A stretch of 64,000 nucleotides of DNA, from positions 124,001-188,000 of the forward strand of contig JANQQV010000017.1 of the NCBI GenBank assembly GCA_028284865.1. Direction: 5' to 3'. Position 1 is the first letter of the stretch. Each line of letters begins with the position of its first letter. The notes under the pieces are model-generated. The model was given only the letters and a program-made list of their open reading frames with translations. It had not been told where the DNA came from and ran no database searches. The DNA is from Rhodothermales bacterium (lineage in GTDB: Bacteria > Bacteroidota > Rhodothermia > Rhodothermales > UBA10348). Below, piece after piece: positions 229-32,567 of this stretch. The position numbers and the translations under genes were made by a program.

Positions 229-830
229 CCGCTGCCGTCGGTTGAGTCAGGGCTGGGTGAATCCGGCACGTCGAATACGACCAGCGGAAGAAGTCGCTCA
301 AGCGTTTTTGGACCGATCCCCTTGATGTTTGAAAGATCGTCAGGACCCTCAAAGTGACCGCGCGTCTTACGGTAAGCAAGAATGCGTTCGGCCATGGCGG
401 GTCCAATCCGGGGTAGAGCCTGAAGCGTTCGGGAGTCAGCCGAGTTGATCGTGATCGGGAATGAAGCCTTTGGTTTGTCCAGGGTGTCCACAAGCGCCCA
501 GCGCTGAACCCGGTCCGTGGCGTGCTCAGACCGGGACGGAATATGATCGAACGTTGCTCCAAAGCCCACATGGATGGTATCCATCCGTACCGGGTCGATC
601 CCTTCGGTTGAGTCTGCATGCGCAGAAAGGGCCTCAAACAGGCTGTCCATTTCGGCATAGGTCAGATCATTGAATGGAGGGTGAGCTGCATTGACGATGC
701 GCCACACATTTCCTCCCAGGACGCCTGCCAGAACGAGAACAAGCGCAATCGCTTCCTTCTCCGAACACACCAGTCTTTCCCGGATTGGATACAGTATTCG
801 GTGTTGCAGTCGTTTGAGTCTGGTGCTCAT
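210..830 (-). CDS. ComEA-like helix-hairpin-helix DNA-binding protein
   Basis: A 206-residue protein with an N-terminal membrane anchor (about residues 25-43) and a C-terminal ComEA-type tandem helix-hairpin-helix domain (about 126-186). The domain opens with INSAD and carries the two hairpins LPRIGPAMA and IKGIGPKTL, which in this family contact the DNA backbone without sequence specificity. ComEA proteins bind incoming DNA in the periplasm during natural transformation; similar proteins also occur outside competence systems. I chose the ATG at 830 because the open frame upstream runs into the divergent recO start. The linker between anchor and hairpins (about 80 residues) is longer than in short ComEA proteins. 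No other competence gene is visible, so a competence role is inference. Confidence 0.75.
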   Translation of the reverse strand: MSTRLKRLQHRILYPIRERLVCSEKEAIALVLVLAGVLGGNVWRIVNAAHPPFNDLTYAEMDSLFEALSAHADSTEGIDPVRMDTIHVGFGATFDHIPSRSEHATDRVQRWALVDTLDKPKASFPITINSADSRTLQALPRIGPAMAERILAYRKTRGHFEGPDDLSNIKGIGPKTLERLLPLVVFDVPDSPSPDSTDGSGQDGGL

Positions 831-922
831 TGTGCGGGAGACAAATGCCGAAATGGTTCTGGATTGACACCGGTTGCCTTCAGCAGTAACCTGCCTGTCC
901 CTTCGCATCGAAACCCATCCCC

Positions 923-1687
923 ATGCCCACAACTGGCGTTGTCCAAACCGAGGCCATCGTGCTGCGATCACTCGACTATGGCGAGACGAGTCGCATTGTC
1001 ACGTTGTTTTCGCAGGAACTGGGCAAGGTGGGGGTTATGGCCAAGGGTGCGCGGTCCGCGAAGAGCCGATTCGGATCAACTCTGGAGCCGATGGCCCGCG
1101 TTTCAGCTGTCATCCATGTGCGTCCTGGGCGGGATTTACAGATCCTCTCTGAAGCCTCGCATGTTGATCTGCACACAACCCTTCGGTCGGATCTGACCAG
1201 GGTTGAATCGGGCATCCGGATGATCGAATTGGTTGGGGCTTTGCTACCCGATCGGGAGCCTAACCCGGCAGTCTACGCTTTGCTGGCCGCAAGCATGACT
1301 GCGCTCGATCAGGCTCCGGGTCGCATCGGAAATATGTGGCCTTTCTTCCAATTGCGCCTTGCTACGCTTCTTGGATTCGGCCCTTCTTTCGATCGCGAAT
1401 CCGTCCAGCAAATGGACGGCGATCACGGCGTCCTGGACTTGCATTCGGGGCGAATTGCCGGGGAGGTCAAAGAGGGGTGGACGCCCGTTCGTGAGCGACG
1501 TACGACCCTTCGAGCCTTCGCCATCCTGGCGCGTGCCGAGCTGTCGGATGTTCTAAGGATGGAGCTTTCGGCTGAGGAGACGGCCGAGGTGGGACGACTG
1601 GTAAGGGGATATGTGCAGCACCACGTGGAAGAGTCATATCCCACGCGAAGTGCTCGGGTGTTCGCCCAATTCCGCGATTCGCTCTGA
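923..1687 (+). CDS. recO: DNA repair protein RecO
   Basis: RecO is a recombination mediator that, with RecF and RecR, loads RecA onto SSB-coated single strands and anneals complementary strands. The N-terminal OB fold begins with the family pattern TEAIVLRSLDYGETSRIVTL, followed by a short KGARSAKS loop and a C-terminal helical domain (LLGFGPSFD, typical of RecO). Length 254 residues is normal. Many RecO proteins carry a four-cysteine zinc site after the GFGP motif; this protein contains no cysteine at all, so that site is absent. It is divergent from the ComEA-like gene with 92 bp between starts, and sits upstream of lexA, making a small DNA-repair neighbourhood. Confidence 0.93.
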   Translation: MPTTGVVQTEAIVLRSLDYGETSRIVTLFSQELGKVGVMAKGARSAKSRFGSTLEPMARVSAVIHVRPGRDLQILSEASHVDLHTTLRSDLTRVESGIRMIELVGALLPDREPNPAVYALLAASMTALDQAPGRIGNMWPFFQLRLATLLGFGPSFDRESVQQMDGDHGVLDLHSGRIAGEVKEGWTPVRERRTTLRAFAILARAELSDVLRMELSAEETAEVGRLVRGYVQHHVEESYPTRSARVFAQFRDSL

Positions 1688-1743
1688 CCATCCAATCACG
1701 GCTTGGGGTCTCGACCCTGTCCGTATTCGATTGGCGAATCGGG

Positions 1744-1782
1744 TTGCGCTCAATGGATTATATGAGTACTATATGTGTATCC
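1744..1782 (+). promoter_or_regulatory. candidate lexA promoter and overlapping dyad
   Basis: TTGCGC at 1744-1749 and TACTAT at 1767-1772 are separated by 17 bp, the usual spacing of a sigma-70-type promoter. An imperfect dyad spanning 1755-1782 begins GGAT and ends ATCC around a central AGTACT, and covers the -10 position. A dyad overlapping a promoter upstream of lexA would suit autoregulation. This is read by eye only, and the dyad is not perfect. Confidence 0.3.
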
Positions 1783-1806
1783 GCACAGTTAACTCGCTCA
1801 AGCATC

Positions 1807-1854
1807 GTGATTCAAAAGGTGATCCAAAAGGTGATCCACGAAGCGATCCATAAA
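1807..1854 (+). repeat. four tandem 12-bp repeats in the lexA leader
   Basis: Four consecutive 12-bp units lie directly before lexA: GTGATTCAAAAG (1807-1818), GTGATCCAAAAG (1819-1830), GTGATCCACGAA (1831-1842) and GCGATCCATAAA (1843-1854). The core G(T/C)GATCC is nearly constant. The array ends 13 bp before the lexA start, so it lies in the likely 5' leader. It could be a repeated protein-binding site or a simple slippage array. Confidence 0.7.
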
Positions 1855-1867
1855 ACGCGCAACGCCC

Positions 1868-2512
1868 ATGGCACGTAGAGGATTGACCAGCAAGCAGGAG
1901 TCCTTTCTGGACTTCCTCAAATCGTATGTCGACCAGGAAGGCGACTGGCCTACCTATCGCGAGATTTCCGATGCATTCGGTTTCCGCTCTCCGAACAGCG
2001 TCACACAGAATCTCCAGGCCCTCGAGAAGAAAGGCTTCCTCGTCAGGGAAGACGATGGGTTCTACTTCCCGGAAGAACGGGACGGCGAATTGGAGCCGGC
2101 AGGAATTCCGATCAAGGGGATCATCACCGCTGGGAAGCTCCAGGAGGCTGTTGAGGAGAATCTCGGAACGATCACGCTTGAGACTCTCTTTCCCGGACTG
2201 GATCGCATGTTTGCCATTCGCGTGTCGGGAAATTCGATGATCGGGGCGAACATCAACGACGGAGACTACGTGCTCCTGATGGATGATGACATTCCCAATG
2301 GTGGAATCGGGGCCATCCTGTACGATGGAGAAACCTCGCTCAAGCGGGTTTTCTACGATCAGAATGGATTGCGCCTTGAGCCTGCAAACGAGGAGTACGA
2401 GGATATCCTGATCCGTCCCGACGTGTTTGAAGAAGTGCGTGTGCTCGGACGGTATGTCGGCCACGTGAATCACAGCGGGATTCACCGTCACAGTCGTCGA
2501 GCCGTGGCGTAG
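1868..2512 (+). CDS. lexA: LexA-family SOS repressor / autoprotease
   Basis: LexA represses DNA-damage genes and self-cleaves when RecA filaments form. The 214-residue protein has an N-terminal winged-helix domain (about 1-70; LTSKQESFLDFLKSY and a recognition helix near SPNSVTQNLQALEKKG) and a C-terminal S24 peptidase domain. The scissile Ala88-Gly89 (ITAGK), catalytic Ser123 (GNSM) and Lys159 (TSLKR) are all present, so self-cleavage should work. The start at 1868 fits the usual LexA N-terminus. Upstream are four 12-bp repeats and a possible promoter dyad. The gene follows recO, and a role as the local SOS regulator is likely. A UmuD-like protein is unlikely because the HTH domain is intact. 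Confidence 0.92.
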   Translation: MARRGLTSKQESFLDFLKSYVDQEGDWPTYREISDAFGFRSPNSVTQNLQALEKKGFLVREDDGFYFPEERDGELEPAGIPIKGIITAGKLQEAVEENLGTITLETLFPGLDRMFAIRVSGNSMIGANINDGDYVLLMDDDIPNGGIGAILYDGETSLKRVFYDQNGLRLEPANEEYEDILIRPDVFEEVRVLGRYVGHVNHSGIHRHSRRAVA

Positions 2513-2668
2513 CCTGCTTGAAATCACCCATCCAGCGAACTCTATCAACGACTGACCGGGCAGGATTCACACCAGGTAGGTAAAAGGGGATGAACGGCTC
2601 ATCGGAACCGTTCGCGAACCGTACATTAGAACCCGCTCGCTCGTACTCCCCACCGCTCCGGTTTTTGC

Positions 2669-4348
2669 ATGCGCCTCGCTTGGTGCCTCTTGCTGTCAAC
2701 CTTCATCCTGGTCGGACAATCTTCTGCCCAGGATTTCCGCTTTTCTTGGGATCACGCCACGGTCTATCGCATCGTGACCGATCGATTCTCCAACGGGGAC
2801 TCGTCAAATGATTTCGCCTACGGCCGCGGATTGAATGGAGCGGGCGAAGAGTATCCCGATGACGTCACCGGTCATTTCATGGGTGGCGACTATGTCGGGA
2901 TCCTCGGATGGTTGGAAGACGGATACTTTGATGATCTGGGGGTAAACACCCTTTGGTTGTCGGCGCCTTACGAGCAGGTGCAGGGCTGGGTCGGCGGCGG
3001 CGACGGTGATTTCCAGCTGTATGGATACGACGGCTCTTTTCCGCTTGACTATACACGATTCGAGCGAGCTTTCGGGGACGAAGACGCATTCAGACAATTG
3101 ACTGATGCAGCCCGAGAACGCGGCATGCGCATCATCGTCGATGTCGACCTTAATCACGTGGGTCCCGCTACCATGCACGACATGGCAGCATTCGGATTCG
3201 GTGGGCTTACCGGAGAGTCATGGCGTAATTGGCAACCCTCCAGCCGAGTGGGCTGGCAATCCTATTTGTCCAACCTCGTGACGGTTGAGGATTCTTCCGC
3301 GGCTTGGCAACGCTGGTGGGGAGCAGACTGGATCCGGACGAACGTGGTCGGATATGAATCATGCGGAAGCGACCTCATGACCGAATGCGCCAACGGCTTA
3401 CCAGATCTGCGGTCCGATGTGGAAGTAGCAGGACTGCCACCGTTTCTGACCTTGAAATGGGGAGAAGAGCAGACCGCCGCGGAGCAAGGTGAGCTTGATG
3501 CCTTTTTCGCTCGCAATGGCGCTACTCGCTCGGCGGCTAATCACGTTGTGAAATGGTTGGCAGACTGGGTTGCCGAACAGGACATCGACGGATTCCATGT
3601 CCGCGAAGCAGACCGCATCGACCCCGCTGTGCTCACGCTGCTGACCAACGAGGTGGAACGAGCTTATCTGGGTCGCGACGCCGAACCCGAGATTCCTTTC
3701 CTACTCCTGGTGGACGGCGACCTACCGATTTCTGTCGGGGCCGATCGATCGATTGCGTGGCAGAGCTTGACCGACCATGTGAATCAGGATCCCCTGTTCA
3801 AGGCTACCCAGAACATTGTAGCATCTTCCGCCTCGGACGTGCGCAACCTCTCTTTCCGGGAAATGCCTATCGCCGAAACACAGGATGATCTATCGGTGGT
3901 TTCCTCTTTCCTGCTTCAGCCCGGTCCCGTGGTGTTGAACTACGGTGTGGAGTCAGGTCGGCAGGCTGGTCCCGAGGTTTCCGATCCATCTCAGATGGGG
4001 CATTCGCCCATGAACTGGGACAGCTTCGATGAGGAGCGATTGGCTACCTGGACGGCCATTGGGAGCTTTCGCGGTCGACACCCGGCCGTGGCCAGAGGTG
4101 GCTTCGACGTGGTTCAGGATTCGCCGGCAGCCTTCCACCGAGGCGTTCGCATCGGAATGGACGCTGATCAGGTAATCATCGTGACGGGAGCCGAAGGTCG
4201 CACGCGCCTCACGGTGTCCATCGTGTGGCCGGATGACACGGTTCTCAAGGATGCCATGACTGGAAGCGTCGGATTCGTGTCGTTCGGACAGGTCTCGATG
4301 ACCCCGCACGCCTCCGGCCTCATGCTGCTGGAAGCAGTACCTGAGTAG
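2669..4348 (+). CDS. secreted GH13 alpha-amylase-fold protein, probably catalytically inactive
   Basis: A 559-residue protein with a clear signal peptide (cleavage near SSAQ/DF). The alpha-amylase barrel is recognisable: TVYRIVTDRFSNGD at the first strand, YGYD, the first conserved region DVDLNH (Asp158, His163) and the LPDL segment (244-247). The second conserved region, normally GFRVD with the nucleophilic Asp, reads GFHVREADR, placing Arg312 at the nucleophile position and His310 at the conserved Arg. No convincing acid/base Glu region appears (FLLLVDGD), and the fourth HD motif is also missing before PGPVVLNYG. The fold therefore seems kept while catalysis is lost; a carbohydrate-binding or transporter-like role is possible. 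A Bacteroidota-like TACATTAG lies at 2622-2629. It converges on aconitase. Confidence 0.82.
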   Translation: MRLAWCLLLSTFILVGQSSAQDFRFSWDHATVYRIVTDRFSNGDSSNDFAYGRGLNGAGEEYPDDVTGHFMGGDYVGILGWLEDGYFDDLGVNTLWLSAPYEQVQGWVGGGDGDFQLYGYDGSFPLDYTRFERAFGDEDAFRQLTDAARERGMRIIVDVDLNHVGPATMHDMAAFGFGGLTGESWRNWQPSSRVGWQSYLSNLVTVEDSSAAWQRWWGADWIRTNVVGYESCGSDLMTECANGLPDLRSDVEVAGLPPFLTLKWGEEQTAAEQGELDAFFARNGATRSAANHVVKWLADWVAEQDIDGFHVREADRIDPAVLTLLTNEVERAYLGRDAEPEIPFLLLVDGDLPISVGADRSIAWQSLTDHVNQDPLFKATQNIVASSASDVRNLSFREMPIAETQDDLSVVSSFLLQPGPVVLNYGVESGRQAGPEVSDPSQMGHSPMNWDSFDEERLATWTAIGSFRGRHPAVARGGFDVVQDSPAAFHRGVRIGMDADQVIIVTGAEGRTRLTVSIVWPDDTVLKDAMTGSVGFVSFGQVSMTPHASGLMLLEAVPE

Positions 4349-4471
4349 CGCTTCGCGTTTTCCCGGCGATTCGCGACGCGGTTTCGCCCCAACGATCTCA
4401 GCGCGGCGCATCTTCCCAGCGCTCCTGCTCGCCTAGCGTTCCGCTCCAATCTGTTCACCTCTCCGACCAGA

Positions 4472-7446: not shown

Positions 7447-8652
7447 TCAGCTGGCGTGCAGGGATGCTTCTTCAAGCACGTCACGGACTTCACTGAGCAC
7501 CTCCAGGCGTTCCTCATGGAAGGAGCGGGCATTTTCGTCGGCATCTTCCAGACGCTGCTGCGTTCGCGCCATGGCATCTGACACCAGGTCCAGGGCCGTC
7601 TTGCCCTCATCTGTCGCGACGGTCGGGTCCATGCCGTGGTCGATCAGGATGTTCACCATGTCGACGATGCCGAATTGTGCGGCGATGTGCAGGGCGTTGA
7701 ATCCATTCTGGTCACGAGCAGACGGATTCAGTCCTTTCTCGAGATAGCGGGCAAGGCGGCGTGAGTTCTGACCCAGGATGACAAACCGGTTCAGATTGTA
7801 GTACGGATGCTGGAACGATGACAGATCCGGTAGATGGCGCTCCAACAGGCTCAAGCACCCGCCATCCGGAAGACGGCGCTCCCGCGCCATGGCCACAAAG
7901 AGTGGAACGGCCCCATCCGGATCAGGACGGCGTACCATGTCAGGGTCGCGTTCGATCGCGGCTTCCAATTCGCCACAGCGTCCCAGTCCAACCAACTCCC
8001 GATCCTGGACCTCAATTCCGGTCGCCAGAATCATGTCGACGAGCTGATTTTGCCGGACACTGGGTCTGTTCAGCACGAGCGAGAGTGTGGTCTGACCGTT
8101 TTCGAATGGCTGGGTCAGTATGTCAGGTCGTTGGGTCGCGAACGCAGAAACGGCTTCGACATCGCGAGAAAGCAAGAAATGCCGCCTGAAGCTGTCCATC
8201 TCCAGCAGGGCGAGCGTGGCTTCCTCGGCAGAGTCCCCGCCGATCATCGACTCCAGATACTGAACGTAGGTCTCCCGACTTTGGGGACTGGTTATCCGGT
8301 CCTCTTCCTGGCCCTGATTGAAGAAGAGCACCGTTGGTACGCCATTGACGCGGAGGCTGTCGTAGATCTCCGGCGACTGATCGATATCGAGCTTGTAGAC
8401 ATAGGCTCGCCCCTCCATTTCCGGAGCGATGCTCTCAATGATCGGATCGACCAGTCTGCAAGGCGCACACCAGGTAGCCGTGAAGTCCACCAATACGGGT
8501 TTGTCGGCTTCCAGCACCTTCTCGGTGAAGGAAGCGGTAGTGACATACTCGACAGTTGATTCGGTGGTCTGAACCTTGGCTCCCTCTTCAGTACAGCCAA
8601 CAAGGGCGCCTACGAGAAAAAAGGCGAAAATGAATGAGAGGGCTCGTGTCAT
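7447..8652 (-). CDS. lipoprotein with thioredoxin and ankyrin domains
   Basis: A 401-residue envelope protein. The signal ends in a lipobox (LVGC, lipidated Cys20), placing the protein in the periplasm on a membrane. Residues about 35-135 are a thioredoxin fold with the redox pair WCAPC (Cys62, Cys65) and a cis-proline at GVPT (Pro106). After a helical linker, the C-terminal third contains ankyrin repeats, clearest in NGFNALHIAAQFGIVDMVN and EGKTALDLV. The thioredoxin part should exchange disulfides; the ankyrin part probably binds a partner protein. I chose the ATG at 8652 because the lipoprotein signal begins there. I do not know a named protein with this exact domain order, so the substrate is open. 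Confidence 0.85.
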   Translation of the reverse strand: MTRALSFIFAFFLVGALVGCTEEGAKVQTTESTVEYVTTASFTEKVLEADKPVLVDFTATWCAPCRLVDPIIESIAPEMEGRAYVYKLDIDQSPEIYDSLRVNGVPTVLFFNQGQEEDRITSPQSRETYVQYLESMIGGDSAEEATLALLEMDSFRRHFLLSRDVEAVSAFATQRPDILTQPFENGQTTLSLVLNRPSVRQNQLVDMILATGIEVQDRELVGLGRCGELEAAIERDPDMVRRPDPDGAVPLFVAMARERRLPDGGCLSLLERHLPDLSSFQHPYYNLNRFVILGQNSRRLARYLEKGLNPSARDQNGFNALHIAAQFGIVDMVNILIDHGMDPTVATDEGKTALDLVSDAMARTQQRLEDADENARSFHEERLEVLSEVRDVLEEASLHAS

Positions 8653-8739
8653 TGGAGGCGCGTCAGATAAAGGGCTACGCGCCAATAACGGGATGACCCG
8701 GCCGTGAATCAATGGGGCCGAGCCCGGCTCTCAAACGCC

Positions 8740-23283: not shown

Positions 23284-24947
23284 GAATCCTGGTACTCGCA
23301 CTTCTCCTGATTGCGCTTCCTGCCCAAGCCCAGGAATACTCGGACAGCTACCCGAAGAACCCCGGAATTGATATCCAGGGCTATGTCTTCGAAATCATGG
23401 TGACCGACGACAATGACATCGTTCGGGGCCGAACGACCGTGGATGCCCGGTATGTCGAAGGAGGACAGTCCCAACTTCGTCTTGATCTGATCGGCAAGAC
23501 GACTGAGCGCGAAGGACGAGGAATGGAGGTGGCTCGTGTGACCATGGGCGATGAGGAGCTCTCCTTCGCCCACGCCAATGATGCCATCGTGATTGATCTC
23601 GGGATGGACGTGCCTGCAGGCAAACGTGTCCAAGTGGCGGTAGAGTACAGCGGGATTCCCGCGGATGGTATGGATATAGGACCCAATCGCTACGGCGATC
23701 GGACCTTCTTCAGCGACAACTGGTCGTCGCGCGTGCGCAACTGGCTGCCCGTCGTGGATCACCCGTACGACAAGGCGACCACGGAGATGATCATCACTCA
23801 TCCCGCGCATTATCAGTCCACATCGAATGGTGTGCTCAAGGAGTCATCCAACGTCGGCAATCGGATGAAGATGACGCACTGGGTAAACGATGTCCCCACT
23901 GCCACCTGGCTCTATTTCATCGGAGTAGCCGAGATGGCGATGGAGGTCGTAGACACCTGGAACGGCATTCCCATCGAGACCTGGGTGTACTGGCAGGATC
24001 GGGATGATGGCTTTTATGACTTCGCCGAGCCGTCCAAAGCCGTTCTGGCCTACTACGAGGACCTGATCGGTCCGTACGTCAACAAGCGGTTGGGCAACAT
24101 CGTCTCCAACGCAACGCCTGGCGGTGGGATGGAAGCGGCGTCCATTCCGGCTTACTCGGATCGATCGGTGTCCGGGAATCGTGACATGCGCTGGCAGCAC
24201 GTCATCATCCACGAAATCGCCCATCAGTGGTTTGGCAACGCCGTCACGGAGTACCACTGGAATGATGTCTGGCTCAGCGAAGGGTTTGCTACCTACTACA
24301 CGCTGCTATTCCGGGAGCATCACTACGGACGAGACGATTTCCTGACGGGACTTCAGCAGTCGCGCGATCGCGTCCGGACCTACTACCGCGATTTCTGGGA
24401 TTTCGCGCTGGTGCGGCCCTACATCGAGGATCTGAACGATGTGTCCGGGCCGATGATGTACCAGAAGGGTGCCTGGGTGCTGCACATGCTCAGGGAGACC
24501 CTGGGAGAGGACGTCTACCATCAGGGTATTCGCAACTACTATGCGGAGTACATCAACAAGAACGCTCAGACGGCCGACCTGCGTCGCCACCTCGAGGAAG
24601 TGTCAGGGCAGGATTTGAAGCAGTTCTTTGATCAGTGGCTGTTCCAAGGGGGTATCCCTTCAGTTGCCGCCAACTGGTGGATCGAGGACGGGAAGCTCGA
24701 ATTCAACATTCGACAGACGCAGTCCACCTATCTCTACGATCTGGAGGTCGACGTTCGATACCAGTTCGCCGATGGTACGTGGTCCGAAACAACTCCGGTC
24801 AAATTGCCGCTGGTCAATGGAGAGGCCTGGCAGGCCAACATGAGCATTCCGATTGGCGACGCAGGTGACGTTGTGGCATTTGAACTTGATCCAGGTGTTC
24901 GTCTGCTGGCGAACTATGTGGTCGCCAACGAACGGTTTGATCGCTGA
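23280..24947 (+). CDS. secreted M1-family metallopeptidase
   Basis: A 555-residue zinc aminopeptidase of the M1 (gluzincin) family with a short signal peptide (cleavage near AQAQ). An N-terminal beta-rich domain precedes the catalytic domain, which has the exopeptidase-type motif GGGMEA (281-286, in place of GAMEN) and the zinc site HEIAHQ (His311, Glu312, His315) with the third ligand Glu334 (LSEGF). The C-terminal domain is shorter than in aminopeptidase N. It would release N-terminal residues from peptides outside the cytoplasm. Its start overlaps the amidohydrolase stop by 4 bp and its stop shares a base with the next start (TGATG), so the set is translationally coupled. Confidence 0.9.
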   Translation: MRILVLALLLIALPAQAQEYSDSYPKNPGIDIQGYVFEIMVTDDNDIVRGRTTVDARYVEGGQSQLRLDLIGKTTEREGRGMEVARVTMGDEELSFAHANDAIVIDLGMDVPAGKRVQVAVEYSGIPADGMDIGPNRYGDRTFFSDNWSSRVRNWLPVVDHPYDKATTEMIITHPAHYQSTSNGVLKESSNVGNRMKMTHWVNDVPTATWLYFIGVAEMAMEVVDTWNGIPIETWVYWQDRDDGFYDFAEPSKAVLAYYEDLIGPYVNKRLGNIVSNATPGGGMEAASIPAYSDRSVSGNRDMRWQHVIIHEIAHQWFGNAVTEYHWNDVWLSEGFATYYTLLFREHHYGRDDFLTGLQQSRDRVRTYYRDFWDFALVRPYIEDLNDVSGPMMYQKGAWVLHMLRETLGEDVYHQGIRNYYAEYINKNAQTADLRRHLEEVSGQDLKQFFDQWLFQGGIPSVAANWWIEDGKLEFNIRQTQSTYLYDLEVDVRYQFADGTWSETTPVKLPLVNGEAWQANMSIPIGDAGDVVAFELDPGVRLLANYVVANERFDR

Positions 24948-26218
24948 TGGTGCTTTCTGAGTTCGACAAGGCCCTCCTCGCAGGAGAAGAGGGGCCGGCA
25001 TCCCAGATGGCGATGCGCATTCTGCACCGGATGCTCCCCGTGTTCGGGGTGGACCGGTTCATGGATGTCGAGGCTGCCCACATTGACTCGACGGTCTACA
25101 TGGGCGTGGCGACGATGGAGTATGCTGAGCGGCTCGCCGAGTTGGGGGCCAAGGTGCGCGTGCCTGCCACCCTGAATGTCAGCGGCGTTGACGAGCATGG
25201 TTGGCAGGAATGGGAGGTGCCCGAAGAAGTGGCCTCCAACGCAACTCGTCAGATGCGTGCTTACGAGGCCATGGGCTGCATTCCGACATGGACCTGCGCG
25301 CCATATCAGACGGACCACGCTCCCTCGTTTGGTCAGCAAATCGCCGCAGGTGAATCGAACGTCATCGGGTACTACAATTCGGTGATTGGCGCCCGAACGG
25401 AGCGTTATCCCGACTTGCTGGACATCTGCGCGGCCATCACGGCTCGCGTGCCCGCAGCCGGGCTGCACCTGGATGAAGGGCGGAAGGGGACCGTGTTGCT
25501 CCGACTGACCAATGTGCCCACAGCCTTGCAAGAGGACGATGCCTTCTATCCAGTGTTGGGGCACCTGATCGGCCGGATGGCGCCGGACGGGATTCCAGTC
25601 ATCGAGGGTATGAACGTGCAGCCCACGAACGACCAACTCAAAGCGGTCTGTGCCGGCGGAGCCTCGTCCGGCGCCATCGCCCTGTTCCACATGGTCGGGG
25701 TCACGCCGGAAGCCGCGACCACCAAAGATGCGTTTCTGGGAGACGAACCGCCTCGCGTCGTCGAAGTCGGAATGGATGAGCTCCGCACTTCGTACCAGGA
25801 TCTTTCTACGGCCCAGGGCGAGCGGTTGGATATGGTCGTGTTGGGCAGTCCGCACTTCTCGATTGACGAATTCAAGGCATTGGCACCCTTGGTCAAGGGG
25901 CGCAGGAAAGCCGATGAAGTCGATTTTCTGGTCACATGCAGTCGCACGGTGCGCATGATCGCTGATCATGTCGGACTACTGGAGCCCATCGAAGCGTTCG
26001 GTGCGAAGATCACCGTGGATACCTGTCCGTTGACATCGCCGATGCTGCCCGAACGCATCAAGAACCTGATGACCAATTCGGCCAAGTACGCCTACTATTC
26101 GCCTGGTCTCCTGGGGGTGGATGTGATCTATGGTCGCCTGACAGACTGTGTCCAATCGGCCATAGAAGGAAAGGTCATTCGCGAAGAAGGCCCCTGGAAT
26201 GCAGCGGGAGGACGGTGA
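24947..26218 (+). CDS. aconitase X catalytic (large) subunit
   Basis: A 423-residue protein of the aconitase X family (former DUF521), the catalytic half of a two-subunit dehydratase. Typical features include the DSTVYMG segment, GCIPTWTCAPYQ with Cys111 and Cys117 as candidate iron ligands, GGASSGAIALFHMVGVTPEA, TCSRTV and the late VDTCPLTSP. In bacteria, characterised AcnX enzymes dehydrate cis-3-hydroxy-L-proline; in archaea the same family makes trans-anhydromevalonate phosphate. The separate large and small genes and the peptidase neighbours favour the hydroxyproline reaction. It starts on the last base of the peptidase stop codon, and the small subunit starts 1 bp after its own stop. 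No ketimine reductase for the next step is nearby. Confidence 0.88.
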   Translation: MVLSEFDKALLAGEEGPASQMAMRILHRMLPVFGVDRFMDVEAAHIDSTVYMGVATMEYAERLAELGAKVRVPATLNVSGVDEHGWQEWEVPEEVASNATRQMRAYEAMGCIPTWTCAPYQTDHAPSFGQQIAAGESNVIGYYNSVIGARTERYPDLLDICAAITARVPAAGLHLDEGRKGTVLLRLTNVPTALQEDDAFYPVLGHLIGRMAPDGIPVIEGMNVQPTNDQLKAVCAGGASSGAIALFHMVGVTPEAATTKDAFLGDEPPRVVEVGMDELRTSYQDLSTAQGERLDMVVLGSPHFSIDEFKALAPLVKGRRKADEVDFLVTCSRTVRMIADHVGLLEPIEAFGAKITVDTCPLTSPMLPERIKNLMTNSAKYAYYSPGLLGVDVIYGRLTDCVQSAIEGKVIREEGPWNAAGGR

Positions 26219-26219
26219 C

Positions 26220-26633
26220 ATGAGAACATTGCAAGGGGAAGTCATCATCGAAGGGCGGGCCGAAGGACAGATCCTGGCTAGTACCGAGCCATTGTCCTTC
26301 TGGGGCGGCTACGATCAGCACACCGGCGAGATCATTGACCGCAGGCACCCGCTCTCCGGCGAAAATGGCTCGGGACGCATCCTGGTCCTACCGTTTACCC
26401 GTGGGTCGTCGACCACCACGGCCATCCTGCTCGAGTCGGTTCGTCGAGGGGTGGCACCGGCTGGCATCATCACGGATCGCGCTGATGTATTCCTCGCGCT
26501 TGCCTCGGTGGTTGCAGACGAGATGTATGAGGGAGCCTTTCCGATGGTCGCCGTGGATCGCGACCTGTTTGCCACGCTGAGGACCGGAGAGTCTGCCCGC
26601 ATTTTGGCAGACGGGCGCATCGAAGTAGCGTGA
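26220..26633 (+). CDS. aconitase X swivel (small) subunit
   Basis: A 137-residue partner of the AcnX large subunit (former DUF126), forming the swivel domain that closes the active site. The diagnostic loop PFTRGSSTTTAILLE carries the conserved active-site serine, followed by RRGVAPAGIITDRADVFLALA. I set the start at the ATG at 26220 (MRTLQGEVII), directly after the large-subunit stop. An upstream ATG at 26199 would overlap the large subunit and is less likely. It is the last gene of the operon and converges with apbE; only 4 bp separate the stops. Confidence 0.88.
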   Translation: MRTLQGEVIIEGRAEGQILASTEPLSFWGGYDQHTGEIIDRRHPLSGENGSGRILVLPFTRGSSTTTAILLESVRRGVAPAGIITDRADVFLALASVVADEMYEGAFPMVAVDRDLFATLRTGESARILADGRIEVA

Positions 26634-26637
26634 TGAC

Positions 26638-27630
26638 CTAGAGCAGGGTGAGCCGCTTCCGAAGCCCATGGGACATGAATGATGTCCCGTCGGAATAGAC
26701 CAGAAAGCCTTCCACACCGGCCTGCTGTTCGACGAGAGCCTGTCCCTGCGCGCGATCCGCAACGGAAACGGCCGTGGCAAGCGCATCCGCCGTCATCGTG
26801 TCATGTGCGACGATGGTTGCGCTGACTACGTGATTCACGGACTTACCTGTTCGCGGATCGATCAGGTGGGAGACATCTTGTCCATTCACCACCCGTTTCT
26901 GCATCTCGATGCCCGAGGTAGCTACGGCTTCATTCTCGATCTCGAGCGTGGCAACAAGACCATTTCCACCATCCGGGTGACGGATACCAATCTTCCATCG
27001 ACGATCTGGATCGGGACGCCCGAGTGCAAAGAGGTCGCCGCCCGCGTCGATCAACGCCGCTGTCGAGCCAGTCTTCTGTACGGCACGAAGCGCTTCGTCC
27101 ACACCATAGCCCTTGGCGATGCCACCAAAGTCCGCTCCAACCCCCGAGGTACGCATGCGCACTGTTTCGTCTGTCACGTCGATCTGGCTGAAGTCGATCA
27201 GGCCTTCACCGTGTGCGGCTCCAGGCACGAAGCCCAGCCGCCGCAGAGCAGGAAGGACCGTGACATCCATGGCTCCTTCAGAAAGAGATCCAAAGTGGAG
27301 TGCTGCGCGGGCCACCTCTGCAAGCTCCCGTCCACTCACGGCCGCGCCACCATTGACCTGCATGAGCGCGCTGGCCTTATGGTGAACGGTCATCAGGCGA
27401 TCCACCGTGTGCAGTCGCTCGAAGGCACCCTCCGCAGCTTCTGCTGAAAACTCGGATTTCAGCAACGAAAGCCGGACTGAAGTCCCCATCGCTCCCGTCG
27501 AGCGATGAACGAGGTCGGCAGAAGGGGATCGCGTTGCAAACGCCCATCCGGGTGCGGCCTGGACGAGGGCAACACCGCCGAGAGCTTTGCCGGCGTGGGT
27601 CAGGAATCGGCGCCTTGAGACGATGCTCAT
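26638..27630 (-). CDS. apbE: FAD:protein FMN transferase ApbE
   Basis: ApbE attaches FMN from FAD to a Thr of exported flavoproteins, using Mg2+. The 330-residue protein starts with a Tat-type signal (SRRRFLTHAGKALGG), so it acts folded in the periplasm. Family motifs are present: MDVTVLP, GADFGGIAKGYGVD, DAGGDLFALG, HLIDPRTGK and DTMTADALATAV (metal-binding Asp/Thr). The start at 27630 is chosen because the twin-arginine motif follows directly. An FMN-binding protein with the acceptor motif is encoded two genes upstream on the same strand, and is the obvious substrate. A terminator (27678-27708) separates apbE from those genes, so it probably has its own promoter. Confidence 0.94.
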   Translation of the reverse strand: MSIVSRRRFLTHAGKALGGVALVQAAPGWAFATRSPSADLVHRSTGAMGTSVRLSLLKSEFSAEAAEGAFERLHTVDRLMTVHHKASALMQVNGGAAVSGRELAEVARAALHFGSLSEGAMDVTVLPALRRLGFVPGAAHGEGLIDFSQIDVTDETVRMRTSGVGADFGGIAKGYGVDEALRAVQKTGSTAALIDAGGDLFALGRPDPDRRWKIGIRHPDGGNGLVATLEIENEAVATSGIEMQKRVVNGQDVSHLIDPRTGKSVNHVVSATIVAHDTMTADALATAVSVADRAQGQALVEQQAGVEGFLVYSDGTSFMSHGLRKRLTLL

Positions 27631-27677
27631 GGAGTTACGAGATGTGTGTGACGGCATTGGGAAAGCCAGAAACAAGA

Positions 27678-27708
27678 AAGGGGTTGCCGGAATGTCCGAC
27701 AACCCCTT
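27678..27708 (-). terminator. intrinsic terminator of the flavin/cytochrome operon
   Basis: AAGGGGTTGTCGGA and its near-perfect partner TCCGGCAACCCCTT form a 14-bp stem with one mismatch and a 3-nt loop on the minus strand, followed by TCTTGTTTC. It lies 75 bp after the monoheme lipoprotein stop and before apbE. Confidence 0.8.
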
Positions 27709-27783
27709 CAAGAGTCGTTATGCCAGATCAGTTGAATAGAATCAAATCAACTGAATCGTTGGTGCAGGATCAGGTGTCCTGGA

Positions 27784-28179
27784 TCAATTGTCTTCAGCAC
27801 CCGAAGCAATCCAGGCGACAATCGTCTGATACTCTGAGCTGCCAGCTGTGAAGAAGGCACCACCGCCGTGGCCATCGCCACCGATGGCAGCCACAAGCAA
27901 TTCGCTTTCTTCAGGCGAGCTCTGATTGATGACTTCAGAAACGGAAGCGTAGGATTCCACGCCACCCGTGTAGATCCAGCCACCCGCGCCGCCGCTGTGA
28001 CACGAGGCGCATACCTGGAGGATGGGCATGACGTCATTGGCAAAGGAAACCGGGCCGGTTACTTCACCGCCCGTGTCGCCGGAGTTGGGGAGGTCTGCTC
28101 CGCGATCGAATGGATTATCCGTTCCGCAGCCGACCACGACAAACATGGCAAGAATGGGAATGAGGAGGCGAGCTTTCAT
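27784..28179 (-). CDS. monoheme c-type cytochrome lipoprotein
   Basis: A 131-residue lipoprotein (lipobox VVGC, lipidated Cys18) with one heme-attachment site, Cys57-Cys60-His61 (VCASCH). The surrounding pattern, SFANDVMPILQVCASCH and a closing IVAWIASGA, matches short cytochrome-like domains that Bacteroidota and Planctomycetes fuse to or place beside envelope proteins. No Met follows the heme motif, so the distal ligand is probably His, possibly in GDGHGGG. It likely carries electrons at the periplasmic membrane face between the FMN-binding protein (14 bp upstream) and other partners. I chose the ATG at 28179 because the lipoprotein signal starts there. Confidence 0.85.
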   Translation of the reverse strand: MKARLLIPILAMFVVVGCGTDNPFDRGADLPNSGDTGGEVTGPVSFANDVMPILQVCASCHSGGAGGWIYTGGVESYASVSEVINQSSPEESELLVAAIGGDGHGGGAFFTAGSSEYQTIVAWIASGAEDN

Positions 28180-28193
28180 GTGTTTACCCTCGG

Positions 28194-28757
28194 TCAGTCT
28201 GCGATGAATTCGGTGAATACGGCCAGGCCACGTTTTACAGCAATGGCGACTGACTCGGATGTCCAGGTAGCCCCGCTGATGCCGTCGATATCGTCGCCGA
28301 CTTTGACTGCTTGATCCGCGGTTGCTCCCATGAACTGCTGGAGATAGGTCCATCTCATGGCCGGCTTGCCTTTGTCTTCCCCGAAGACGGTGAAGCCGAC
28401 GTCGTAAACGGCGCCATCAGGGTCAACCGCAACCAGAACCTGGAGGGGACCTTCTTTACCAGCCTGGTTCACGACGAGCACTGTGCCCATGATGCCACCA
28501 TCTGAAGTGGTGCCATTGTAGACTGTGTAGGATCCTTCGGTGTCCACATCATAGGTGTCCATGAAACCGGACGACTGCTCTCCTGAAACGTTCACTGTAA
28601 GCTTCTTGAGTCCAGCAGCGCCTTTTTCCTGGAGCATCACTTTGAGGGCGTCCCGGAGTGAGGAGGGCTCACCGGTCCGAGCGATCTGAGCCGAAGACGA
28701 CGTAGCGATTCCGGCTGTCAGGAGGGCAATGAAGAGGAATCTGATGATGTTTTTCAT
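28194..28757 (-). CDS. periplasmic FMN-binding protein with covalent flavinylation motif
   Basis: A 187-residue exported protein (signal cleavage near SSAQ) ending in an FMN-binding domain like that of NqrC and RnfG. The ApbE target motif DGISGATWTS occupies 158-167, with Thr166 the expected FMN attachment site. The middle (MGTVLVV, QVLVAVDPDGAVYDVGFTVFGEDKGKP) is the beta-sheet part of the domain. With ApbE, a monoheme lipoprotein, a membrane protein and an outer-membrane barrel beside it, it probably shuttles electrons in the envelope. Unlike NqrC or RnfG it has no Nqr/Rnf partners here, so it belongs to a stand-alone extracytoplasmic flavin system. Confidence 0.88.
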   Translation of the reverse strand: MKNIIRFLFIALLTAGIATSSSAQIARTGEPSSLRDALKVMLQEKGAAGLKKLTVNVSGEQSSGFMDTYDVDTEGSYTVYNGTTSDGGIMGTVLVVNQAGKEGPLQVLVAVDPDGAVYDVGFTVFGEDKGKPAMRWTYLQQFMGATADQAVKVGDDIDGISGATWTSESVAIAVKRGLAVFTEFIAD

Positions 28758-28774
28758 GATTCAGCGTGCGATGG

Positions 28775-29386
28775 TCAGGTCGATTCTGAGTGCAGGAACC
28801 AGATCTGATAGATGGAGATGACAAACACAGTCAAGAAGGATAGTGCCATGACCATGCCGGAAATGACGAGCAGCCATGCAAAGCCAGGTCCGACGAAGCG
28901 GGTCAACAGCATGCTCCAGATATCCAACACTGACGCAATGAATGGCGCCAGGACCAGCGTCCCTTTCAACCACGCCGGGATTTCAGCAAAGACAATGATG
29001 ACTCCGCAGATGAAGAAGATGGACACGTAGCCGAACAAGTGGAAGTGGCCTTCTGTCACGATCGCCTCGAAGGTCGGAACGGGTACGAGCGGCTCAGAAT
29101 CGGCTTCCTGCTCTTCAAAGTCGTCAAAGCTGAACTCCTCGGCCTCGGAAACGCCGGCCTCGTCTTCTGAGACCTCCGTATCGGTCATTTCCTCGAGCGC
29201 AGCGCGGGATGTCTCGTTGCCGTAATACTTCAGCGCGGCAGCTTCAGGAGAGAAGCCGACCTTGAAGGCGATATTGCCCAAGGCAAAGATGTAGCCGCAA
29301 CCGAGCGAGAAGAGGACGGCGGTGAAGAGCAGCTTCACCGACATCGGCATCGTCGCGAGCTTGAAGTTAGGATTGAAGTCTGTCAT
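28775..29386 (-). CDS. four-helix membrane protein of the flavin/cytochrome operon
   Basis: I cannot assign a family. The 203-residue protein has an N-terminal helix (about 16-38), a long acidic extracytoplasmic loop (about 45-105, many Glu and Asp), and three further helices (about 118-138, 140-160, 168-198). The segment TEGHFHLFGYVSIFF places two histidines at the membrane surface, a pattern compatible with heme b or quinol contact. Position between the outer-membrane barrel and the FMN-binding gene (17 bp to the latter) suggests a quinol-linked electron entry or anchor for the system. That function is inference. Confidence 0.7.
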   Translation of the reverse strand: MTDFNPNFKLATMPMSVKLLFTAVLFSLGCGYIFALGNIAFKVGFSPEAAALKYYGNETSRAALEEMTDTEVSEDEAGVSEAEEFSFDDFEEQEADSEPLVPVPTFEAIVTEGHFHLFGYVSIFFICGVIIVFAEIPAWLKGTLVLAPFIASVLDIWSMLLTRFVGPGFAWLLVISGMVMALSFLTVFVISIYQIWFLHSEST

Positions 29387-29432
29387 GGTTCTGCAGTCAG
29401 GGTGGACTGTGTGGGATTGGGGATCTCGGTTC

Positions 29433-30545
29433 CTAGAACTCGAAGACCATCATGGTGCGGAAGAGGTCATTGTCGTATTCGTTCACTTCTTCCATGTTGA
29501 GCTGATACTGGAACATCAGGCTCAGATTCGGACCAAGGCGGGTGAGCAGTGCCAGATCCCAGTTGTGGCTGTCCTTGTTCGAAACCGTGTCATCAAAGTC
29601 GATGATCGTTCCGTAGCGTCCACGGAGATGGGCGTACTTGAGGCCACGGTAGGTGAGCTCGACGTAATCGCCGTAGCGGTAGTACCATCCTTCGGAATTG
29701 AAATCAGGGTCGACAAGGACTTTGTCCTGGATTTCTGCCCGAGCAAATGCGCCGCGGAATTTCAGGTCCTTAAGGAATGGCACGTCGAGAAGGCCGTAGT
29801 CGAGCAGCAGGTCGACGCCCCAAAGCAGGAGCTGGTTTTCTTCATCGTCCACGCCGGGTCCGTCCATCTCACCGTACTGGTTGTAGAGGACGCTTCCCCA
29901 GAGGCCAATCTTCGTTCCATAGGCCAGGTGAGCACGCGAACCGTACGCGAAGACATTGTCCGAGCCACCTCCGGAGAGATTCAGGACTTGTCCTTTCTGT
30001 CCTTCGAATCCACGGATGACGTAGACATCGGTGTCGAACGTCATTTTATCGCCATTCACCCAGTTCTTGGAGACACTGGCACCGTACTCAGCCCAGACGT
30101 TGGGAAGCAGCAGGCCCGTGAAGGGATCGCCCTGGATGGCACCATAGTAATGGTGGAAAGGCGTGGCACCGAACGGTACCCAGATCTTACCGGCCGTGAA
30201 GGCCAGACTGTAGGGGAGCTGGGTCCGAAGCTCGTAGTAGGAAAGGTCAACGATCTCGGCATCGAGCGTGAAACGATCGTCCGGCGTGACTTTCAGGAAC
30301 AGCAGCTTGTGGTAATTCCGGAAGCGGTTGGCCTGGGCATCCTTGCCCGGCGCAAATACTTCCATGTTCAGGTCGAAACGACCACTCAGATGGACGTTGT
30401 CCGTCCATGAAGGGAAGGCACCGTGCGATGGTGCTTCCTCTACAACGTCATCGAAACCGATTTCTTCTCCCTCTTGGGCGTTGGCCGGAAGAGTCAGGAA
30501 GGTTACCAGTGTCAGGGACAGGAGGGCGGGTAGAAACAGTCTCAT
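29433..30545 (-). CDS. outer-membrane beta-barrel (porin-like) protein
   Basis: A 370-residue outer-membrane protein with signal peptide (cleavage near ANAQ). Alternating hydrophobic strands, aromatic girdles (YYRYGDYVELTYRG, LWGSVLYNQYGEMDG) and a C-terminal Phe (MVFEF) indicate a barrel of about 16 strands. It opens an operon with the membrane protein, FMN-binding protein and monoheme lipoprotein. In porin-cytochrome conduits the barrel sheathes a multiheme protein; here a nine-heme lipoprotein is divergently encoded next door. A simple anion or substrate porin is the alternative. It lacks the MtrB-type N-terminal Cys pair, so it is not a close MtrB relative. Confidence 0.78.
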   Translation of the reverse strand: MRLFLPALLSLTLVTFLTLPANAQEGEEIGFDDVVEEAPSHGAFPSWTDNVHLSGRFDLNMEVFAPGKDAQANRFRNYHKLLFLKVTPDDRFTLDAEIVDLSYYELRTQLPYSLAFTAGKIWVPFGATPFHHYYGAIQGDPFTGLLLPNVWAEYGASVSKNWVNGDKMTFDTDVYVIRGFEGQKGQVLNLSGGGSDNVFAYGSRAHLAYGTKIGLWGSVLYNQYGEMDGPGVDDEENQLLLWGVDLLLDYGLLDVPFLKDLKFRGAFARAEIQDKVLVDPDFNSEGWYYRYGDYVELTYRGLKYAHLRGRYGTIIDFDDTVSNKDSHNWDLALLTRLGPNLSLMFQYQLNMEEVNEYDNDLFRTMMVFEF

Positions 30546-30759
30546 GGCAATGAATCTCCAGGTCGGGTAATTCGGTTCAGGAGGAGACGGGAGCCGGCTC
30601 GTGATCGATGCCGCTTTTCCGACACTATTCTATCAAATGAGCAGTAGTTGCGATGTACTCCAAGCCGCGAGCGCCCATTGCGGGGATCTTCCCCTACACC
30701 TTATAGGGTTGGGAGAGATGATTCGTGGGGAGATACCCCACAGAAAAAGCGCTTTCAAA

Positions 30760-30799
30760 GGCCAAAACAGGGTTTCCGTTCAGTGGACGGTGTTTTGCC
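30760..30799. repeat. long imperfect inverted repeat in the divergent region
   Basis: GGCCAAAACA at 30760-30769 pairs with TGTTTTGCC at 30791-30799 with one bulged base, and an inner CCGT/ACGG stem closes the loop. Followed by TTTTCAAG on the plus strand. Confidence 0.5.
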
Positions 30800-30836
30800 A
30801 TTTTCAAGCCGATTCTGAATCCTGAGCAAACCTGAT

Positions 30837-30853
30837 CACCTTTCTATAAGGTG
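30837..30853. promoter_or_regulatory. dyad operator candidate before the nine-heme gene
   Basis: CACCTT and AAGGTG form a perfect 6-bp dyad around TCTAT, 46 bp upstream of the candidate -33 element. Half of it (CTATAAGGTG) is repeated in inverse orientation at 30697-30706, which suggests one regulator binding both sides of the divergent region. Confidence 0.4.
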
Positions 30854-30898
30854 TTGCTAGCAAGGCACTTAGAGGCACGCGAGTAGGGGTTTCCCTCG

Positions 30899-30928
30899 TT
30901 GACTTGCGTCGCGTGACCCAATACTTTG
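30899..30928 (+). promoter_or_regulatory. Bacteroidota-type promoter of the nine-heme gene
   Basis: TTG at 30899-30901 and TACTTTG at 30922-30928 match the Bacteroidota -33 (TTG) and -7 (TAnnTTTG, one base short) elements with a 20-bp spacer. The -7 element ends 37 nt before the ATG at 30966. Confidence 0.45.
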
Positions 30929-30965
30929 CGGCCGAACCTCTGGTACCAAAGACCGGTCACCCGTC

Positions 30966-32567
30966 ATGAAACATGCCGTAGGAAACGCCTGGAAATCGGC
31001 AAGCTCTCTGTCAGTCGCACTGACCTGCATTCTGACCCTGTCCCTGTTATTCCTTGGAGGCTGTGACCTCCGGGAAGTGGTTGAAATCGAAAACCCTTCC
31101 TGGGACGAAGCTCCCACAGAAGCCATGGGCTTCATGGGTTATGATGATGCAGACATCAAATTGACGGTCTGCGGTAACTGCCACGTGGACGCTCAATCAT
31201 CCTGGCAAACAACAGCTCACGCTTCCGCATGGGTTGGTCTGGAAAGCAGCGGACATGCACAGGCATTCTGTGAAAGCTGCCATACGGTCAGCCAGAAGGG
31301 TAACCTGATCACGGAACCAGTCGCTTGGGAAACAACGGGCGACGAGCGCTACCACGACGTACAGTGCGAAAGCTGTCACGGCGGTGGCGAAATCCACTCG
31401 ACGGGTCCGAGCTCATCACAGCCGGTCGCTTCGGTTGATCTCGGAAGTCTCGAGGATCTGTCTCTGTCACAGTCTTGCGCTGAGTGCCACCAGGGCTCGC
31501 ACCATCCGTTCGTCGAACAGTGGTCAACTTCCGCTCACGCCAAGGAAGGCACATATCCGATGAACCGTGGTGGTTCATGTGCTTCGTGCCACCGTGGCCA
31601 GGAAGCCATTGCACTGCTTGGCGGCGATCCGACGTACATCGAAGCTGACGATGCAGAAGGACTGAGCATCACCTGTGTGGTCTGTCACGATCCGCACGGC
31701 AGTGAATTCTCGGGCCAGACACGCATGGATGTTGAAACCATCAACCTGGAAGAAAACCTCTGTGCCCAGTGCCACAACCGTCGCACGGTGCCTGATCCGA
31801 ATTCGTCACACGGTCTGCATCCTCACTCACCACAGGTTGCCCTGATGGTTGGTGAAGCTGGCTGGTTCCCACCAGGAGCCAACATTGATGTCGGCAGAAT
31901 CGTTGCCACGCACGGCTCGAATGCCAACTCAGCCGGTTGTGCCTCCTGCCACGTTGATTCGTACGAAATCACGGATCAGGCCACAGGCCAGTTCGTCTTC
32001 ACGAATGTCGGTCACACCTTCGATGCCATCCCATGTGTGGACAGTCAGGGTATTCCAACTGGCGAAGCTGGTTGTGACATCTCCCTCGACGCCCGCAGCT
32101 TCAGCGGATGTACGACCTCTGGTTGCCACAGCTCTGCTACGCAAGCCCAGGCAGCACTGGCCAACACCTCGGCTCACCTTGAGCACCTGGCTCATCAGCT
32201 GCACGAAGTCATCCTGATGGTTGACCCGAACGGCGAAGAGTCTGGTGGTGAAGTCGATTCACGCAATCCGATCTTCACGGTCGCTGAAGGCGCTGTATTC
32301 AACCACAGCCTGGCCGAATTCGGTGGTGATACCTACTCGGCATCGGTACACAACCCGTTCCTGGTAGAAGCACTGCTGGTCGGTTCGCTTCAGGCCATGG
32401 AAGACACGTATGGCGTGACGCCCACGACCAAAGGCAATCAGGATTGGGCCCAGATGCTGGAAGACATCAAGGCACGTGCTCCGCAGGGAGTCATCCCATG
32501 GAAGGCTGTCTACTTCGAAGACACGATTTCCAGCCGCGAGCGTGCTGATCTGGCTTCCGACTACTAG
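30966..32567 (+). CDS. multiheme c-type cytochrome lipoprotein (eight CxxCH plus one CX4CH)
   Basis: A 533-residue envelope cytochrome. The signal ends in a lipobox (LGGC, lipidated Cys33). Eight classical heme sites are visible in order: CGNCH, CESCH, CESCH, CAECH, CASCH, CVVCH, CAQCH and CASCH. A ninth, CTTSGCH, has four residues between the cysteines. The arrangement resembles cytochrome c554/octaheme-like modules (paired motifs with HPF and HDPHG segments), but I cannot assign an enzyme activity. A strong terminator follows. Divergence from the barrel/FMN/cytochrome operon suggests one electron-transfer pathway between periplasmic flavin and the cell surface or an external acceptor. The codon choice is less GC-rich in Lys/Glu runs than neighbours but not clearly foreign. 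Confidence 0.87.
   Translation: MKHAVGNAWKSASSLSVALTCILTLSLLFLGGCDLREVVEIENPSWDEAPTEAMGFMGYDDADIKLTVCGNCHVDAQSSWQTTAHASAWVGLESSGHAQAFCESCHTVSQKGNLITEPVAWETTGDERYHDVQCESCHGGGEIHSTGPSSSQPVASVDLGSLEDLSLSQSCAECHQGSHHPFVEQWSTSAHAKEGTYPMNRGGSCASCHRGQEAIALLGGDPTYIEADDAEGLSITCVVCHDPHGSEFSGQTRMDVETINLEENLCAQCHNRRTVPDPNSSHGLHPHSPQVALMVGEAGWFPPGANIDVGRIVATHGSNANSAGCASCHVDSYEITDQATGQFVFTNVGHTFDAIPCVDSQGIPTGEAGCDISLDARSFSGCTTSGCHSSATQAQAALANTSAHLEHLAHQLHEVILMVDPNGEESGGEVDSRNPIFTVAEGAVFNHSLAEFGGDTYSASVHNPFLVEALLVGSLQAMEDTYGVTPTTKGNQDWAQMLEDIKARAPQGVIPWKAVYFEDTISSRERADLASDY

Follow-up and report, generated by a model that had tools for sequence, protein, structure and literature searches.

Gene content of the locus

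The subject of this analysis is a six-gene locus in the 3.48-Mb, 98% complete draft genome of a Rhodothermales bacterium (assembly GCA_028284865.1). It combines an ApbE flavin transferase, a flavin mononucleotide (FMN)-binding protein, two heme lipoproteins, an inner-membrane protein and an outer-membrane barrel, and its core appears to be a heritable unit that extends beyond Rhodothermales. The window is the whole 64,000-nucleotide stretch analyzed, positions 124,001 to 188,000 of contig JANQQV010000017.1 (contig C21), and coordinates without a locus prefix refer to it. The six open reading frames occupy 26638-32567, and the coordinates given for all six in the original prediction, made from the sequence alone, were confirmed (Table 1); the ATG start of the apbE gene is probably 27630 rather than 27711. 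Five genes form a leftward operon in the order BAR (the barrel), MEM (the inner-membrane protein), the FMN-binding protein, cytLP (a monoheme lipoprotein) and ApbE; the sixth, NONA (a nine-heme lipoprotein), runs rightward on the other side of a shared 420-bp gap.

ApbE carries a twin-arginine translocation (Tat)-type signal, RRRFL. The FMN-binding protein contains the motif DGISGAT, which is conserved in its relatives and fits the ApbE target motif [ST]GA[ST]; the Thr of such motifs receives FMN from ApbE (PMC8238504). The ApbE of the cluster is predicted to flavinylate the FMN-binding protein of the cluster. The original prediction that Nqr and Rnf genes are missing holds for the locus, the neighborhood of which includes no further Nqr or Rnf subunits, but fails for the genome as a whole, given that a complete Nqr operon with its own ApbE is encoded on contig C8. 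Because the Nqr operon has its own ApbE and a third ApbE is encoded elsewhere in the genome, the ApbE of the cluster is probably dedicated to the cluster. An apbE gene is also adjacent to the set in three related genomes (G002, G430 and G437).

In the AlphaFold2 (AF2) model of MEM (predicted local distance difference test score, pLDDT, 72), four long helices are accompanied by a disordered acidic loop; the distribution of charges predicts a topology with the N-terminus inside and both the acidic loop and the HxH motif on the periplasmic face. The two His residues of this motif, H114 and H116, are the only conserved ones and are present in 26 of the 26 homologs. The original prediction placed this protein in no recognized family, and searches of Pfam 2025, NCBIfam 2026 and PDB bore this out, detecting no relative; in particular, none of the 26 homologs matched PF12801, PF01794, PF03929/PF16357, PF02683 or the NqrB/RnfD family (Pfam-A, E-value 0.01). 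Assignment to DUF4405 was rejected (no DUF4405 match in the 26 members, and only two conserved His), as was assignment to any other named family, in the absence of a match in Pfam or NCBIfam. The fold search against PDB yielded nothing significant, only weak four-helix bundle matches at the noise level (best Z 9.6), and a search of a plasmid collection for MEM and BAR gave no match. Judging from these sequence searches, MEM apparently represents a family without a description so far, and it is a candidate quinol- or heme-binding electron-transfer subunit.

A Sulfurovum mangrovi plasmid carries, beside an NiFe hydrogenase operon, a disrupted fragment similar to the final two helices of MEM (L097:6959-7240), which may indicate that one branch of the family is linked to hydrogenases. 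A presumed proteobacterial family with a c-type heme in the loop between the first two transmembrane helices (TM1 and TM2) followed by HIHLFG, in which case cytLP would be a split-off half of MEM, was not confirmed; an approximate query matched only the Sulfurovum fragment.

BAR, with 345 mature residues, is modeled as a barrel of about 16 strands (AF2, mean pLDDT 59, so that the strand count is approximate). Its best fold matches are VhChiP, PorB, Omp32, DcaP and OprP (Z 17-18 over about 265 residues), with Foldseek E-values down to 7e-7 and, with VIA, a Z of 18.1 over 270 aligned residues; in this low-confidence model, the match to the 16-strand general and solute porins spans the whole barrel. 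A conserved His lies in the presumed constriction loop (TPFHHYYG), and the segment TPFHHYYGAIQGDPF, which aligns with an invariant HEP of other barrels, is probably this loop. The possibility that BAR is a sheath of the MtrB or Pcc type was rejected on account of its size, its fold and its occurrence without a multiheme partner. In one relative (G007; L011:6354-7463 and 7484-8699), the barrel gene contains an in-frame stop and the gene of an ethylbenzene-dehydrogenase-like (EB_dh) protein is split between two frames, which reflects either decay or sequencing error.

The single heme motif of cytLP is accompanied by a GC lipobox and by one further invariant His, H104, a candidate distal ligand; no Met is conserved across 7 relatives. 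This protein was found only in the heme-bearing Rhodothermales form of the locus and is a candidate carrier between the FMN-binding protein and the terminal heme lipoprotein. In NONA, all nine heme motifs, including the CX4CH at 382-388, are invariant in 5 relatives, in which at least nine additional His are conserved as well. The best sequence matches in PDB are OmhA (6QVM, E-value 1e-7) and OcwA (6I5B, E-value 1e-5), over only part of the chain, and further matches of the NONA profile are cytochrome c554 and octaheme nitrite reductase; these matches are short and due in part to the spacing of the heme motifs. NONA is a candidate terminal heme protein.

Table 1. Genes and intergenic region of the locus (window coordinates)
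Feature	Coordinates	Strand	Basis
ApbE, FAD:protein FMN transferase, Tat signal	26638..27630	-	PF02424, E-value 5e-59
cytLP, monoheme c-type lipoprotein	27784..28179	-	CASCH, lipobox, invariant H104
Periplasmic FMN-binding protein, covalent-flavin motif DGISGAT (T164)	28194..28757	-	PF04205, E-value 3e-12, RnfG/NqrC-like
MEM, four-helix inner-membrane protein, periplasmic-face HxH (H114, H116)	28775..29386	-	AF2 pLDDT 72, conservation, charge distribution
BAR, outer-membrane barrel, general/solute-porin type, ~16 strands	29433..30545	-	AF2 mean pLDDT 59 (low confidence), fold search
Intergenic region shared by the BAR-side operon and NONA (divergent)	30546..30965		Layout conservation
NONA, nine-heme c-type lipoprotein	30966..32567	+	8 CXXCH + 1 CX4CH

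Inheritance, loss and wider distribution of the gene set

Of 114 Rhodothermales genomes, nine, from four families, contain the BAR profile, and the same nine contain the long-loop form of MEM (Fisher p ~1.5e-13, calculated with relatedness ignored). NONA is present in six of the nine and, additionally, in G017, 150 bp away from the end of its contig. All six genes are retained in the same order in a genome of the same genus (G002), and all six are also present in a member of another family (G430); G045 possesses the whole set except for an adjacent ApbE. In two more genomes the assembly interrupts the set: the contig of G432 ends after MEM and the start of the FMN-binding protein gene, and in G054 the set is split over two contigs.

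In four sister species (G001, G004, G005 and G006), the locus is flanked by the same genes, aconitase X at one end and a PhoD-like phosphatase at the other, with protein identities of mostly 74-93%; in G005, the contig truncates the aconitase end. Between these flanks, only ApbE remains, and in G006 a decayed remnant of NONA persists between ApbE and the PhoD-like gene (L147:11612-11872; E-value 5e-15, one stop, one intact heme motif). Because the same flanks enclose ApbE alone and a NONA remnant survives in G006, the comparison indicates that the set is ancestral at this locus and was then lost together in the sister species. The ApbE that was left behind perhaps serves other flavoproteins. 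Co-occurrence, joint loss and synteny rule out cytLP, NONA or the barrel as chance neighbors, and the original prediction that these genes form a set is upheld, as they are inherited and lost as a unit.

The nature of the terminal lipoprotein varies among Rhodothermales. In G007, G019 and G437, a lipoprotein of the EB_dh family (PF09459; E-values of 7e-30 and 1e-26 for two of them) is encoded between BAR and MEM. Because the EB_dh protein fills the place in these three genomes, the terminal heme lipoprotein is, judged by gene content, exchangeable between a nine-heme and an EB_dh form, with the remainder of the set constant.

Beyond the Rhodothermales form, MEM has an FMN_bind gene directly next to it on the same strand in all 28 further loci, and a barrel gene precedes in 23 of the 24 larger MEM loci, the sole exception being one that runs into the end of its contig; about half of them have ApbE as a neighbor. 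BAR is homologous to the barrels of these loci (hhalign E-value 3e-8 over 314 columns), which, except for L062, are free of hemes. Because FMN_bind and the porin accompany MEM at such frequencies, the core consists, as far as gene order tells, of the porin, the FMN-binding protein and MEM; ApbE may or may not be present, and hemes are normally absent. The heme-free form is probably present also in a Rhodothermus genome. In L062 (genome G382), adjacent open reading frames with 34 and 20 CXXCH motifs, encoding very large multiheme cytochromes, lie at positions 276-4465, about 3 kb from the porin-FMN-MEM set.

Plasmids of Pseudomonadota (L065, L066, L067 and L068) show the order porin, FMN_bind and ApbE; the next gene encodes a small membrane protein whose four invariant His are arranged as in membrane b-type cytochromes and which bears a weak likeness to DUF4405 and b-type cytochromes. 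Profile comparison of MEM with this four-His protein detected no similarity. Because the Pseudomonadota plasmids have a b-cytochrome-like protein in this position, the slot held by MEM seems, by analogy, to be one where a membrane electron-transfer protein is to be expected. The first and last genes of these plasmid loci are hypothetical where annotated; one locus lies beside multicopper oxidase and ferritin-like genes and another beside a cytochrome c peroxidase gene.

With regard to the surroundings of the window locus, the intergenic region between BAR and NONA probably holds the promoters of both the BAR-side operon and NONA. The divergent arrangement is retained in four relatives (L008, L010, L092 and L111) and is replaced by a tandem one in L093; no conserved operator was found in this region. 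It contains an 11-bp perfect inverted repeat, ACACCTTATAG/CTATAAGGTGT, at 30696-30706 and 30844-30854, which has these two occurrences only in the window (0.17 expected, allowing at most one mismatch); sought in three relatives, it was not found and hence is not conserved. The cluster is bordered on the left by a split aconitase X at 24947-26630 on the forward strand, consisting of a large-subunit gene (PF04412) and a swivel gene (PF01989), which scores against a cis-3-hydroxy-L-proline dehydratase model and is the conserved left border in the sister species.

Proposed mechanism and alternatives

We consider the chances slightly better than even that the products of the locus form an electron-transfer module of the cell envelope with a dedicated function, in which electrons would pass from quinol through MEM, covalent FMN and the monoheme protein to a terminal heme lipoprotein, with the porin serving as a solute channel. 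The original prediction that the parts suit a quinol-flavin-heme relay is upheld, and systems in which a membrane donor serves a flavinylated protein form a class that is already established (PMC8238504, PMC11334425); the particular chain, its direction and its acceptor are putative. In evolutionary terms, the comparison of loci indicates that the porin, the FMN-binding protein and MEM, often with ApbE, are an old heritable unit to which Rhodothermales added cytLP and one exchangeable terminal heme lipoprotein.

Respiration in Rhodothermales uses menaquinone. In the proposed mechanism, MEM would take electrons in the inner membrane, most likely from menaquinol, and pass them at the periplasmic HxH to the FMN attached by ApbE. 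The FMN-binding protein would then deliver single electrons to cytLP, which would hand them to NONA or to the EB_dh protein, NONA acting as a terminal reductase or an electron store. The porin would let in the acceptor, an iron chelate or another small electron acceptor, or let out the product, and would form no sheath around a cytochrome. In the heme-free core, an imported solute might be reduced directly by the FMN-binding protein. Because OcwA reduces nitrite and hydroxylamine in addition (PMC6703420), a soluble acceptor appears, by analogy, as likely as a mineral one.

Several considerations weigh against this mechanism. The genes fit the oxidation of an external donor equally well, so that the direction of flow is putative, and so is the transfer from cytLP to NONA or to the EB_dh protein. 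The redox activity, the cofactor and the quinol site of MEM are likewise putative: two His residues only two positions apart cannot alone ligate one heme, so that a dimer is needed for heme binding, and the HxH may bind a metal instead; a MEM dimer similar to that of FezC may be conceivable. The distribution of MEM in the phylum is patchy, with homologs detected in 27 of 394 sampled genomes with the MEM profile and in 40 of 394 with a broader profile. Finally, the porin assignment depends on a barrel model of low confidence (pLDDT 59).

A more far-reaching version of the proposed mechanism, which we regard as possible albeit doubtful, is that MEM founds a new class of inner-membrane quinol:flavin oxidoreductases, with a single periplasmic HxH redox site, perhaps at a dimer interface, that would feed a covalent-flavin protein coupled to a dedicated porin; the plug-in heme lipoprotein of Rhodothermales, nonaheme or EB_dh, would then make of this reductase a new respiratory chain whose acceptor is either external or imported.

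Among the alternatives, the locus could function as an assimilatory reductase for iron or another metal: the porin would admit Fe(III) chelates, MEM and the FMN-binding protein would reduce them in the periplasm for uptake, and the hemes of Rhodothermales would raise capacity or storage. Iron transport often accompanies flavinylation clusters (PMC8238504), one heme-free locus (L045) has a Fur-family regulator beside it, and next to two others (L055 and L064) is a Fbp/Fut/thiamine-type solute-binding protein of the periplasm. However, the scores of these solute-binding proteins, which were below curated cut-offs, pointed to binding of thiamine or phosphonate and not of iron, no iron transporter gene was recognized in the window cluster or as a constant companion of the heme-free loci, and assimilation needs no nine-heme sink, which makes this explanation unlikely.

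Also rather unlikely is a respiratory enzyme of the periplasm, a reductase or oxidase, whose small soluble substrate enters by the porin, with NONA and the EB_dh protein as alternative terminal enzymes. The matches of NONA to cytochrome c554 and octaheme nitrite reductase, the activities of OcwA toward nitrite and hydroxylamine, and the fold of BAR, which is that of substrate-specific channels, are all compatible with such an enzyme. In known systems, members of the EB_dh family serve molybdenum enzymes as heme subunits; however, no molybdopterin catalytic subunit is encoded beside the EB_dh genes, and the enzyme matches of NONA are those that are short and partly a matter of heme spacing.

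Exit of electrons through the barrel, which the original prediction had entertained, would imply a porin-cytochrome conduit of the Pcc or Mtr type, with NONA held in BAR and reducing minerals or other extracellular acceptors, and is highly improbable: although in most heme loci the BAR and NONA genes lie next to each other in divergent orientation and the best PDB matches of NONA, OmhA and OcwA, are surface terminal reductases (PMC12203936, PMC6703420), the barrel was predicted to be an ordinary solute porin of about 16 strands, compared with predicted numbers of 18-22 in Pcc porins and 28 in MtrB (PMC4245776), it is kept when EB_dh replaces NONA, and its homologs occur in about 20 loci without a multiheme cytochrome.

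Flavinylated proteins occur in about half of bacteria and, to our knowledge, many flavinylation clusters have no recognized membrane donor; MEM, a nameless family tied to an FMN-binding protein at every locus examined, is a candidate for the missing donor in Bacteroidota and their relatives. The constancy of the porin suggests that the entry of substrates is organized together with their reduction in the periplasm, and the replacement of NONA by an EB_dh protein amounts to a natural experiment on the change of acceptor in such relays.

Comparison with known systems

Of the known systems, the porin-cytochrome complexes MtrAB and Pcc (OmbB-OmaB-OmcB) resemble the locus in that a barrel gene adjoins a multiheme lipoprotein gene. 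Unlike these complexes, BAR has the fold of a solute porin of about 16 strands and occurs without the multiheme protein, and there is one multiheme cytochrome only: the pair of periplasmic and outer multiheme cytochromes is absent at the locus, which encodes one nine-heme and one monoheme lipoprotein. OcwA and OmhA are surface terminal reductases of Gram-positive thermophiles (6I5B and 6QVM; PMC6703420, PMC12203936). OcwA has nine hemes and a length similar to that of NONA, whereas NONA, a lipoprotein, comes from a Gram-negative bacterium and has CX4CH as its ninth heme site, and its match to these proteins is partial.

The FMN-binding protein of the cluster shares the FMN_bind family and the flavinylation motif with NqrC and RnfG but scores far below the rnfG and nqrC cut-offs and is encoded with no other Nqr or Rnf subunit. 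DUF4405 proper has four conserved central His, and FezC has been modeled as a homodimer that creates its heme sites (Huang et al. 2024, PMC11334425/PMC10979944). Like these proteins, MEM is a small membrane protein with conserved His encoded near apbE; unlike them, it has a single HxH pair and no DUF4405 match.

In papers on respiration in Rhodothermus and Melioribacter and in text searches on the combination of a porin, an FMN-binding protein and ApbE, no description of the set was found. The closest comparison is with the flavinylation-based extracytosolic systems, for which five membrane classes have been defined, namely NapH-, MsrQ-, PepSY-, DsbD- and Nqr/Rnf-like (Meheust et al. 2021, PMC8238504). 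These classes and the present locus have in common ApbE, an exported FMN-binding protein and a membrane protein in one cluster, with modular flavin and cytochrome partners (PMC8238504). In contrast, MEM belongs to none of the five classes by family search, and the porin is constant in MEM loci; the word 'porin' is not mentioned in the main text of that study. The set would approach a new kind of system only if MEM were a new type of quinol:flavin oxidoreductase. As it stands, the set is best regarded as a new form, within a general class that is already known, of flavinylation-based electron transfer, the membrane component of which appears to lack an earlier description.

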